From Synechococcus sp. MIT S9220 (lineage in GTDB: Bacteria; Cyanobacteriota; Cyanobacteriia; PCC-6307; Cyanobiaceae), in contig NZ_CP047958.1 of the NCBI RefSeq assembly GCF_014304815.1, forward strand, positions 310,001 to 374,000: 64,000 bases of DNA. The letters run 5' to 3'. The notes below the pieces were generated by a model. That model saw only the letters and a list, made by a program, of their open reading frames with translations. It was not told where the DNA came from and made no database searches. A program made the position numbers and the translations under genes. Numbering within the stretch: the stretch's first letter is position 1; each line of letters starts with the position of its first letter. Below are positions 5,625 to 9,971 of this stretch, piece by piece.

Positions 5625-5652
5625 GGGATAGAGCCATCATCTTATGGGTCAA
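5625..5652 (-). promoter_or_regulatory. predicted psbI promoter
   Basis: On the minus strand TTGACC (bases 5652-5647) is followed after 16 bases by TATCCC (5630-5625), about 20 bases before the psbI ATG. The -35 matches the sigma-70 consensus at five of six positions and the -10 is weaker. The element overlaps the first codons of the divergent mannosidase gene if that gene starts at 5644. Prediction only. Confidence 0.4.
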
Positions 5653-8600
5653 GGTTGTGAATTCACGATGCAGCCCCCTCTACAGCCCCGGCGATTGGCG
5701 TGGATTGAAACGTTTCGAAGTCGCAGCCGCCTCGATCTGCTCTCTTTTTGGCATCGATGCGGTGATTTCCACAGGCAATCCGTCCTTGAAGAGCCTTGGG
5801 GAGCGCAGCATCGACCTGACTGGGCGAAGCGTGGACTGTTGATCTGGCCAAGAGGGGGCGTCTGGTTGCGAATTGAGCAGACCATCACCTGGCCAAAGCA
5901 CTGGCAGCACTGCGAAGACAGCCTTGAACGGCTTGTTCTCAGTTGGTGGGCAGACCAGGTGCGTCTCTGGGTGGATGGGGTTCTCGTGCATGAAGGGGAC
6001 CTGTTCGACACCCGTTGCCGCTGGAAGCTGCCGGTTCACTGGAATGAGGGAGCGGGCCTGAGGTTGCTGCTGGAGCTGCGCAGTCCCTGTCATGACGATG
6101 GTGCACTGATCACAAGTGATCTGGTCCGGGAGCCCGCTGTGCCCTCTGTTGATCCCCAGGCATGTCTGCTTCCTCAGGCTCTTGATCTCACAGGCATCAA
6201 GGCAGAGACGCTGCCTGAGTCGTGGCTTGATTGCGATCCGCTATCCACTGAGGCGGTGGTTCAGGTTGATCAACACCTTGCAGGGCTGGCTCATGCCGCC
6301 GGTGGATTGCACTGGGTTGGGCATGCTCATCTGGATCTGGCCTGGTTGTGGCCTGTTGCTGATACCTGGCAGGCGGCGGAACGCACCTTCCACTCTGCTT
6401 TGGACTTGATGGAGCTCTTCCCGGAGCTGCATTTCGCCCACTCAACCCCAGCTCTTTATGAGTGGATCGAGCGCCACCGCCCTGCACTGTTTGTACGCAT
6501 TCAGCAGGCCAGTCGTCTGGGTCGTTGGGAGCCCATCAACGGTCCCTGGGTTGAAACCGACTGTGTGCTTGTGAGCACGGCCTCACTCTGGCGGCAATTT
6601 TCATTAGGTCAGGAGGCCAGTCAGAGATTGTTCCCGGAGTGGTCTCACGATTTGGCCTGGTTGCCGGACAGTTTCGGATTTGGGTCCGGGCTGCCGGCCG
6701 TTGCCTACGCCACGGGCGTTCGCTGGTTCTGCACACACAAGCTGGCGTGGAATGCCACCAATGTTTTCCCGCACCGTCTGTTTCGCTGGCGCGGCCGCGG
6801 CGGCGCGGAGCTGCTGGCGTTGATGTTGCCAGGCATCGGCACAGATGCCGATCCAATGGCCATGCAGCAAGAGCAGCAGCGCTTTCAGGCCAACACGGGA
6901 TTCGACCAGGCCCTGTGGTTGCCCGGGGTTGGTGATCACGGCGGTGGGCCGACCAGGGAAATGCTGGAAGAGATGCAGCTTTGGCAAGACCATCCACAGG
7001 CCGCCCCACGTCGCGCTGGGACGGTGCGTGACTACCTGAAGCAGCTTGAGCCGCTCAGGTCAGCGTTACCCGTCTGGAAGGACGAGCTGTACCTGGAACT
7101 GCATCGGGGTTGTGCCACGTCTCGCCCGGATCAGAAACGACACAACCGCACTCTAGAGCGGTTGCTGCGGGAGGCTGATCTGGTGGAGGCCCTTGGAGCA
7201 AAATCCACGCAGCGGCGGGACTGGCAGGTGCTGCTGTTTCAACAGTTCCACGACATTCTTCCTGGAACCTCGATTCCTGAAGTGTTTGATCAGGCGGAGC
7301 CCCAGTGGCGAGCTGCCCGCCGACGTGTGGCAGTGCTGAGGACTGCAGGTCTTCATCAATTGCTCAGTCGTGTGTCGCCCGCGGACTCAGCGCCTGATAA
7401 GGCTTGTCAGCGCTGGGCATGGTGCGGGCTGCAGCCACTGCAGCGCTGGTCTCCACTGGTGCGGCTGCCGCGCGGTCGGTGGTCGTGTGAGGGCAACAAC
7501 CTGCCATCACAAGTTGCTCCAGGTGGTGATCTGTGGGTGCAGTTGCCGGAGGCCCAGGGGGTGATGGCACTGCCTCTGGAGTGTCATCCAGATGCACCAG
7601 CCGTTGCCTCAGCATCTGAGACAGCTGCTCCTGTTGTGCGGAATCCGGTTCGGGTTCAGCTCATCGCCCAGCAGAGCTGGCGCCTCTGCAACGGTCTGCT
7701 CACGCTTGAGCTGGACCGCAGGGGACTGACCCGCCTGCAGGACGAGCAGGGTGTTGATCAGCTTTCGGAACCAGTGCAGTTCCGGCGCTATCGCGACCGG
7801 GGTGAGTTCTGGGATGCCTGGGATCTGGCGGTGGATTATCCGCAGCACCCACTGCCGATGGATGCTGACTGGCAGCTGGAGTTGGTGGAGCAGGGCCCGC
7901 TGGTGGCCAGGGTCGTGATGAGCAGCTCGATCGAGAGCAGTGCGCTGCGGATGGATGTGCTGCTGCGAGCCGACAGCCCTGCCGTTGAATTGCAAGTAAC
8001 GATCGACTGGCGTCAGACCCATGAACTGCTTCGAGTGGTCTGTCCCCTTGCCAGGTCAGCGGTGCGCTGGGCTGCGGACACCAGCGGCGGTGTGATCGAA
8101 CGACCCGCTGTCGCCTTGACGCCCAGCGAGCATGCTCGCTGGGAGGTTCCTGTGATTTCCTGGTTGGCCAGTGAGGAAGCAGGCCCTGGTGGTGGGCTTG
8201 GCGTCTTGCTTGACGGTCCTCAGGGGGTTGATGCCGGCCCGCATCATCTGGGAATTTCATTGCTACGTGGGCCGACTTGGCCTGATCCATCGGCGGATCA
8301 GCGGCTTCATCGTCATCGCCTGGCACTGATGCCTGTTTCAAGCGGCTGGTATCGCGATGGTCTTGCGCAGGCGGCGATTCGCTTTCGTGAACCGGGCTGG
8401 CTGGGACCGATCGAATCCTGTGGTCGCTGGTATGGATTCCCTGCTCTGCCTCAGCAACTCGTACCGGTCTCGATCCGACCGGATCAATCCGCTAATGCGG
8501 TTCAAGATGCGGTTCTCGTTCAGCTGCTGAACCCTGGGAGCACAAGGGTGACCTGGTCGCCTGGCGATCAGGGCTGGTTGATTCAGGATGGACAACAGTC

Positions 8601-8658
8601 CACAACAATCAACCCAGGTGCGTTGCAAGAGCTGCGCTTAGCCCCTCAGTCGTCGTGA
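5644..8658 (+). CDS. alpha-mannosidase-like glycoside hydrolase (GH38)
   Basis: About 1000-residue glycosidase. The GH38 signature [11 protein letters not shown] is at about residues 224-234. The [13 protein letters not shown] motif at about 339-351 contains the expected catalytic Asp nucleophile. Downstream lie [14 protein letters not shown] (middle helical domain) and a long C-terminal beta-sandwich region, so the domain order is complete. GH38 enzymes remove alpha-linked mannose; the natural substrate here, perhaps envelope glycan or scavenged polysaccharide, is unknown. An alternative ATG at 5668 ([10 protein letters not shown]) would avoid overlap with the psbI promoter and may be the true start. 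The 3' end overlaps the convergent psbN stop by 13 bases. There is no signal peptide, so the enzyme is probably cytoplasmic. Confidence 0.9.
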
Positions 8659-8786
8659 TCATCGAAGGGATCGTCCAGACGCTTCGAGGGTGGTCCGAAG
8701 GCTGTGTAAACGCCAAAACCGGTTAGTCCAAGCAGGGCGGTTAACACCGCGATCGACACCGACAGCGCCGGGGAAGAGCTTTCCAT
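8646..8786 (-). CDS. psbN: photosystem II assembly protein PsbN
   Basis: 46-residue single-span protein. It begins [20 protein letters not shown], contains the conserved [20 protein letters not shown] segment, and so matches PsbN. Family knowledge: PsbN is needed for assembly of photosystem II heterodimers and is not a stable subunit. It is divergent from psbH, the classical psbN/psbH arrangement. Its stop lies inside the 3' end of the mannosidase gene. The ATG is chosen from the family N-terminus. Confidence 0.95.
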
Positions 8787-8804
8787 CACATCTCTCGACA
8801 GGAT

Positions 8805-8822
8805 CGGCCCTGATCAGGGCCG
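8805..8822. promoter_or_regulatory. 18-bp perfect palindrome between psbN and psbH
   Basis: CGGCCCTGATCAGGGCCG reads identically on both strands. It lies 18 bases upstream of psbN and 50 bases upstream of psbH, just 5' of a TACAGT hexamer at 8830-8835 that could be the psbH -10. Position and symmetry fit a dimeric-regulator operator; a leader or cruciform structure is the alternative. Confidence 0.5.
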
Positions 8823-8872
8823 GGACCCCTACAGTATCGGGACTGAACTTCACCCGAGACCTCAGGGCCGCT

Positions 8873-9073
8873 ATGGCACAACGCACTCGTTTGGGCGATC
8901 TGCTCCGTCCCCTCAACTCCGAGTACGGCAAGGTTGTCCCCGGCTGGGGAACCACCCCTGTCATGGGCATTTTCATGGTGCTGTTTCTGGTTTTCCTGCT
9001 GGTGATCCTCCAGCTCTATAACCAGTCTCTGATCCTTGAAGGAATCAACGTGAACTGGAACGGCGGCGCCTGA
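8873..9073 (+). CDS. psbH: photosystem II protein H
   Basis: 66-residue photosystem II subunit with one transmembrane helix (about residues 30-50, [20 protein letters not shown]) preceded by the conserved [19 protein letters not shown] segment and followed by NQSLILEGI. The ATG at 8873 ([11 protein letters not shown]) gives the normal family length, and the open frame further upstream is not part of the gene. PsbH supports assembly, stability and acceptor-side electron transfer of photosystem II. The tatA gene follows after 22 bases. Confidence 0.97.
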
Positions 9074-9095
9074 TTCGGCACGCTCATCACTTTCC

Positions 9096-9335
9096 ATGAA
9101 CATCTTCGGCATCGGACTTCCTGAGATGGCCGTCATCGGAGCCGTTGCGCTTCTGGTGTTCGGACCGAAGCGTTTGCCAGAATTTGGCCGGACGCTCGGC
9201 AAAACGCTCAAAGGATTTCAGACAGCCTCCAAAGAATTCGAACGCGAAATCAGCAAAGCGATGGCTGATCCTGAGGAACTTCCACCTTCCTCGCCTTCAG
9301 ACCCAGCCCCGTCTCCCAAGGCTTCTGAGGATTGA
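9096..9335 (+). CDS. tatA: TatA/E/Hcf106-type twin-arginine translocase subunit
   Basis: 79-residue protein with the family layout: a short N-terminal helix (IGLPEMAVIGAVALLVFGP), the invariant FGPKRLPE hinge, an amphipathic helix (FGRTLGKTLKGFQTASKEFE) and an acidic Pro/Ser-rich tail. TatA oligomers form the pore for folded twin-arginine substrates in the thylakoid and plasma membranes. It is followed by pth with three bases between the stop and a GTG start, suggesting co-transcription. Confidence 0.92.
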   Translation: MNIFGIGLPEMAVIGAVALLVFGPKRLPEFGRTLGKTLKGFQTASKEFEREISKAMADPEELPPSSPSDPAPSPKASED

Positions 9336-9338
9336 TCG

Positions 9339-9971
9339 GTGATCGAGCGTGGTGACCTCCGTCTGGTGGTCGGTCTGGGCAATCCCGGTGAAAAATATGC
9401 CTCGACACGGCACAACGTGGGATTCATGGCTCTTGAGTTGCTCACAGCTCGTGAGGGTGGGCGTTTTAAGCCGATGTCAAAGCTTCAGGGTGATCTCGCT
9501 GATGTCGGCTCCGGTAGCGCTCGACTCAGGCTGCTGATGCCACAGACCTACATGAATGACAGTGGTCGTTCGATCCGTGCAGCGCTGGATTGGTTTGATC
9601 TTGGGATTCATCAGCTGATCGTGCTCGTCGATGACATGGACTTGCCGCTCGGACGGTTGCGCCTGCGTGCGCGAGGAGGTGCCGGTGGACATAACGGCTT
9701 GAAAAGCACTATTCAGCATCTCGGCACCCAGGAGTTCGCTCGCCTTCGCATCGGCATTGGTGCTCCTGGTCGCAATCCCGAGGAACGGCGTGCCCGCACG
9801 GTGTCTCATGTGCTTGGTCAGTTCAACCGGTCTGAGGAACCTCTGCTCCAAGACGTGCTGAGCGAAGTGTTGTCCGGCCTCAATCACATTCAGCGACAAG
9901 GCCTGGATCGGGCTGGGAATGCCATCAATGCTGTGAATCTGGTGCCTGATCTTGATGGCGATCCGGCCTGA
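9339..9971 (+). CDS. pth: peptidyl-tRNA hydrolase
   Basis: 210-residue enzyme that releases peptides from peptidyl-tRNA after premature termination. Signatures: VVGLGNPGEKYASTRHNVGF near the N-terminus (with the catalytic His of RHNVGF), PQTYMNDSG, VDDMDLPLG and GGAGGHNGLKS. The start is GTG at 9339, three bases after the tatA stop. Its TGA overlaps the ATG of the next gene, so translation of pth and the DUF3146 gene is probably coupled. Confidence 0.96.
   Translation: MIERGDLRLVVGLGNPGEKYASTRHNVGFMALELLTAREGGRFKPMSKLQGDLADVGSGSARLRLLMPQTYMNDSGRSIRAALDWFDLGIHQLIVLVDDMDLPLGRLRLRARGGAGGHNGLKSTIQHLGTQEFARLRIGIGAPGRNPEERRARTVSHVLGQFNRSEEPLLQDVLSEVLSGLNHIQRQGLDRAGNAINAVNLVPDLDGDPA

Follow-up and report, generated by a model that had tools for sequence, protein, structure and literature searches.

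Between psbN and psbH, two divergent photosystem II genes, the window (the whole 64,000-nucleotide stretch of DNA analyzed here, part of a 2.42-Mb genome) carries CGGCCCTGATCAGGGCCG, an 18-bp sequence at positions 8805-8822 that is, on inspection, exactly self-complementary. Is this palindrome a binding site for a regulator of both genes, part of an RNA, or an accident of composition? An earlier note on this DNA had described it as perfect, 18 bp from the psbN ATG and beside a TACAGT hexamer, and these details hold: the hexamer lies at 8830-8835, and the gap of 86 bp is bounded by the psbN ATG at 8786-8784 (minus strand) and the psbH ATG, which begins at 8873 (plus strand). The features of the region are listed below.

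8646-8786, minus strand: psbN, 46 amino acids (Pfam PF02468).
8792-8801, minus strand: CTGTCGAGAG, mostly conserved, directly 5' of the psbN ATG; eight of its ten positions are invariant in the genus alignment (columns 38-47), and the second-genus alignment is similar.
8797-8855, minus strand: psbNH (Rfam RF01753), matched along the whole model (positions 1-60 of 60) with 78.9 bits against a gathering score of 45, E 1.2e-18.
8800-8803, minus strand: 3' arm of a proposed outer helix, from the covariation alignment.
8805-8822, minus strand: the palindrome, a 7-bp stem and 4-nt loop (GAUC) of the psbNH hairpin; -12.5 kcal/mol when folded alone, z -3.87; the stem covaries in relatives.
8824-8826, minus strand: predicted psbN transcription start, from the -10 spacing, in an arrangement like that of PMC10268837.
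8826-8829, minus strand: GGGG, 5' arm of the proposed outer helix, which would pair with 8800-8803; none of the four pairs is changed on both sides.
8830-8836, both strands: near-symmetric -10 TACAGTA, read as TACAGT on the plus strand (psbH) and TACTGT on the minus strand (psbN); conserved, and a putative shared bidirectional promoter.
8838-8833, minus strand: GATACT, an alternative -10 seen in the sequence.
8842, plus strand: predicted psbH transcription start, an A, from the -10 spacing.
8873-9073, plus strand: psbH, 66 amino acids (Pfam PF00737).

Sixty first-order Markov simulations of the window put the expected number of perfect palindromes 18 bp or longer at 0.25 per 64 kb and 0.00034 per 86 bp. 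The window contains two, that at 8805-8822 and a 22-bp one at 8122-8143. One of 18 bp is unremarkable for the window as a whole; in the 86-bp gap, chance does not predict one. The longer palindrome falls within a GH38 alpha-mannosidase ORF (5644-8658), from which it follows that perfection by itself is no sign of function. Among 19 loci compared, it is intact in three (L006, L086 and L087, of which L006 and L087 are apparently the same contig) and therefore looks like chance within coding sequence. The GH38 ORF, on the plus strand and ending at 8658, converges on psbN, which ends at 8646 on the minus strand, with a 13-bp overlap of their ends (8646-8658).

We gathered orthologous gaps from five sources: 80 named loci; the genus of the window, with a psbH match in 29 of 31 genomes; the family, with 368 of 400 genomes matched, from which came 16 new loci and then 40 stretches; one small-genome genus (41 genomes, 33 matched, 30 loci); and single-genus representatives (30 of 30 matched). 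From the 227 loci with a psbH match, 178 gaps were analyzed, leaving out 47 outgroup loci from the named set, as listed by us, together with copies from this genome and near-copy loci (L001-L004 and L088). Two of the 178 (L200 and L156) have no -10 anchor, giving 176 gaps and 117 distinct blocks; 116 of these were folded, the one lost probably being L015, which contains an N. For covariation we aligned 22 genus sequences and, out of the other 95 distinct ones, 21; the remainder were folded only. Genome size and sequence are the basis on which we applied the labels LL-like, HL-like and Cyanobium-like and assigned named loci to g1 or g5, all of these being inferred.

The exact 18-mer occurs in three of 231 loci, each a copy from this same genome, and the only perfect palindrome of at least 14 bp among the 178 orthologous gaps is that of the window. 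In the window's genus, the flanks of the gap are conserved and the palindrome arms vary jointly, with pairs such as CGGTCC/GGACCG, CGACCC/GGGTCG and TGGCCC/GGGCCA in relatives, around centers (for example, TCTTCA or TGTTAC) that are not palindromic. The perfection of the palindrome is thus incidental; its loop merely happens to be self-complementary in this genome. Comparison across relatives was among the checks named in the earlier note; the -10 region is conserved and the palindromic sequence is not, close to the outcome given there as speaking against a regulatory site.

We consider it probable that the palindrome forms the psbNH RNA stem (RF01753), located in the 5' leader of the psbN mRNA. 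The Rfam match has a score above gathering and lies in the psbN-psbH gap on the psbN strand, and its stem carries paired changes; these observations favor the leader hairpin that the earlier note had offered as a fallback. In Weinberg et al. 2010 (PMC2864571), where psbNH is listed from cyanobacteria and marine samples, the motif is rated 'probably' RNA, 'probably' cis-regulatory and 'probably not' a riboswitch. The hairpin is therefore already known as a catalogued cis-regulatory RNA candidate and is no newly found protein-binding site. It shares with psbNH RNA the gap, the strand, the hairpin and a full-length match above gathering, and differs in that its loop is self-complementary, which makes the palindrome perfect.

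RF01753 matches a single location in the genome. Within the window's genus, 29 of 31 genomes have a match (28 above the cut-off), and the two others, assemblies with a completeness of 58% and 63%, have no psbH match either. Across 400 family genomes, searched with stricter filters at which weak matches are lost, 73 match at E <= 0.001, in four of 59 genera, with 61 above the cut-off; the matches above it are in g1, g5 and g30, and every g10 match is below. None of 14 control genomes has a match. A separate element, the Plastid-psbN 5' UTR RNA (RF04353), is likewise named for psbN leaders, those of plastids; its match here lies elsewhere, antisense within psbH (8914-8975, minus strand), and at 43.2 bits falls short of its gathering score of 50. 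Conservation of psbH codons is the probable cause of this sub-threshold match, and this prompts a question about the RF04353 family.

The stem was evaluated in two alignments read on the minus strand. In the genus alignment (22 distinct sequences), 87.2% of cells pair, a value matched by 4 of 500 shuffles, and 12 cells are changed on both sides, which no shuffle in 500 reaches; four of 11 pairs are changed on both sides, a count reached by 32 of 500. In the second genus (21 distinct sequences), 90.1% of cells pair and 17 are changed on both sides, neither reached in 500 shuffles, and three of 12 pairs are changed on both sides (reached by 152 of 500); in all these comparisons, kinship among sequences can outdo shuffles without any structure. 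When the partners are slid, pairing drops to 32-55% in the genus and to 23-71% in the second genus, and the covariation score falls from 0.231 to at most 0.082 and from 0.210 to at most 0.052, respectively. Every double change in the genus alignment is within the inner helix, which is the palindrome, and none is in the outer helix, which RNAalifold places in a shifted register in this alignment. The GGGG at 8826-8829 may be promoter or discriminator sequence instead of a helix arm. We also considered an intrinsic terminator and rejected it, as there is no terminator call at the palindrome and no T run in its flanks.

On the minus strand, folding is better than that of shuffled sequences (p <= 0.05) for seven of 22 distinct sequences in the genus and nine of 20 in the second genus. 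The single g30 sequence also beats its shuffles, equally well on both strands. Elsewhere folding is mostly no better than shuffled: p <= 0.05 is reached by 2 of 29 sequences in the Cyanobium-like group, 1 of 28 in the LL-like and 0 of 16 in the HL-like, which limits the hairpin claim to g1, g5 and one g30 sequence. Covariation and folding together support the hairpin in part of marine Synechococcus, in two genera and one sequence of a third; in the other groups it looks to have been lost, never present or undetectable, with the -10 retained. A hairpin throughout the picocyanobacteria was considered and set aside: stems are visible by eye in many Cyanobium-like and LL-like sequences and mostly fold like shuffles. 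The small HL-like genomes (L170-L199) keep a symmetric TACAATA -10 in an AT-rich region and have no hairpin.

Which message would carry the hairpin? The mean fold z of the minus strand is -1.15 in the genus and -2.05 in the second genus, compared with -0.67 (3 of 22 at p <= 0.05) and -0.79 (3 of 20) on the plus strand; the psbH side of the -10 gives 0.26 (0 of 22) and 0.01 (0 of 20). Counts of G.U against A.C also favor the minus strand (46 v 9 in the genus, 67 v 18 in the second genus). We rejected this polarity as strong strand evidence: dropping the columns in which G.U is commonest removes it (12 v 9 in the genus, 9 v 18 in the second genus), and the asymmetry is reproduced by column shuffles, leaving it as weak evidence only. 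The psbN leader is the likelier home of the hairpin, an assignment that is moderately supported, not proven, by these comparisons.

The starts of the two messages depend on the promoter. The earlier note had suggested TACAGT as the psbH -10; this is plausible and the hexamer is strongly conserved, but a consensus sigma-70 promoter scan of 8000-9700 found nothing, and the promoter reading accordingly rests on conservation. Alignments were anchored on the six letters TACAGT, which leaves the seventh, A7, outside the anchor. This A is required solely by a -10 read towards psbN. Over five groups, 123 of 132 distinct sequences have it; the share is smallest among the LL-like (21 of 28), while the HL-like, which are without the hairpin, have it in all 22. 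At the ninth position from the start of TACAGT (8838), a C is found in 118 of 132 distinct sequences; it would be an extended -10 G in the psbN direction only.

TACAGTA looks like a bidirectional promoter common to psbN and psbH. Near-symmetric -10 elements have been described in which -11A of one strand falls on -7T of the other, and from which transcription starts divergently, usually at a distance of 18 bp (PMC10268837). The mark of a bidirectional promoter is divergent starts mapped 7-25 bp apart. In TACAGTA, -11A and -7T likewise coincide reciprocally on the two strands, and the predicted starts are 16-18 bp apart. The present case differs from that work in that the starts are predicted from sequence alone and in that the minus-strand +1 at 18-bp spacing (8824) is a C, a poor start; the G at 8826 would give a spacing of 16 bp, not 18. 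A published psbN start site for these organisms was not found in the literature searched, including passages of PMC3276175, PMC5069720, PMC5126843 and PMC5295598. The predicted first 43 nt of the psbN message, which run from 8826 to the end of the ATG, have a folding energy of -17.2 kcal/mol (z -2.18). A 46-nt stretch beginning at 8829 reaches -19 kcal/mol but a z of only -1.24, which counts against the leader-hairpin reading; for the predicted psbH leader the values are -3.6 kcal/mol and z 0.52. CTGTCGAGAG, at the other end of the psbN leader, is probably the psbN translation initiation region; within the gap it ranks with the better conserved stretches, in marine Synechococcus and through to genomes of the Cyanobium-like group.

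The same observations bear on other readings of the palindrome. In the earlier note, a dimeric regulator was proposed to act on both genes, which as a DNA operator would block or activate the divergent psbH and psbN promoters. The dyad is indeed perfect, sits at the position of a psbH -35 adjoining the divergent promoter, and has symmetrical arms in several relatives. An operator would, however, be expected at orthologous promoters, where the palindrome is not conserved; the exact site is found in this genome only (231 loci), and the arm letters vary so long as they remain paired, so that structure is kept and a recognition sequence is not. Eight genomic near-copies (2 mismatches over 16 bp) are inside open frames of at least 120 codons, the shortest having 129 codons, which in a GC-rich genome is weak coding evidence; near-copies with up to 2 mismatches thus occur in open frames, not upstream of other genes. 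Since the stem is kept by paired changes, the centers are non-palindromic and just one of 178 gaps has a palindrome of at least 14 bp, a dimer operator is disfavored, and we regard it as improbable; the proposal of a regulator acting on both genes is not supported.

It is similarly unlikely that the hairpin acts towards psbH or on both strands, for example, in longer transcripts that run on from upstream through psbH, or by blocking polymerases that collide. The variable columns fail to discriminate the strands, and the plus-strand fold is equal or better in some sequences among those listed, which would suit such a role. Against it, the conserved psbH -10 is downstream of the palindrome, so that the proximal psbH transcript would not contain it; there is no terminator call at the site, the Rfam model is on the psbN strand, and the minus-strand mean z is better in both genera. 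Still less probable is the absence of any function, in which a chance palindrome and GC-rich filler separate two promoters and the covariation is only apparent, from shared ancestry. Chance palindromes do occur in the window, as at 8122-8143, folding is mostly non-significant beyond the marine Synechococcus genera, and one shuffle measure (pairs changed on both sides) is unexceptional. The very low expectation in the gap argues the other way, as do the paired changes in two separate genus alignments and the independent curation of RF01753 as an Rfam family.

If the palindrome is, as we favor, the psbNH stem in the psbN leader, a palindrome that seemed unassigned is tied to an RNA candidate already catalogued next to this pair of photosystem II genes, and a mechanism can be proposed. 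The TACAGTA box would serve both genes, giving a psbN RNA from about 8824-8826, with the hairpin 2-4 nt from its 5' end, and a psbH RNA from about 8842, without the hairpin. This 5'-terminal stem-loop could slow the kind of decay that begins with sensing of the 5' end, or modulate the start of translation, and psbN output would be adjustable separately from psbH despite the single promoter. Such tuning of psbN mRNA stability or translation, letting psbN vary apart from psbH, is the least sure part of the mechanism, and we would place it somewhat below even chances. A stable 5'-terminal stem is expected to hinder 5'-end-dependent mRNA decay, as in the E. coli ompA type. The psbN hairpin, stable and predicted to lie within 2-4 nt of the 5' end, resembles this mRNA-stabilizing type. 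Cyanobacteria reportedly have no close RppH homologues (PMC10989914), and the decay step may therefore differ from that of E. coli.

With a shared promoter and the predicted starts, the first half of the RF01753 model would be promoter and psbH leader, not RNA. Approximately half of the model, the part spanning the -10 box and psbH leader, is thus probably promoter rather than RNA and would lie outside the psbN RNA, a further difference from the family as modeled. More tentatively, a symmetric promoter might fire psbN and psbH in fixed proportion, with the hairpin, on one message only, setting their ratio post-transcriptionally; the psbNH motif would then be composite, made up of a bidirectional promoter plus a short hairpin, and not a 60-nt RNA. 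This composite view is the sole part of our reading that may be new. The identification of the palindrome with psbNH also gives a simple, testable model in which PsbN, an assembly factor, and PsbH, a subunit, could be made in unequal amounts from one promoter. In strain WH7803, psbH is reported as upregulated under UV at low light and psbN as among the assembly factors with parallel expression (PMC7393227), which is in keeping with a shared promoter and no demonstration of one. The role of PsbN in cyanobacteria has been described as still needing single-mutant study (PMC4823308).

Adjoining the psbH ATG, the 9-mer TCAGGGCCG is repeated at 8862-8870. The repeat is unchanged in a relative (L085) that has a different hairpin arm, suggesting that it is probably unrelated to the hairpin.
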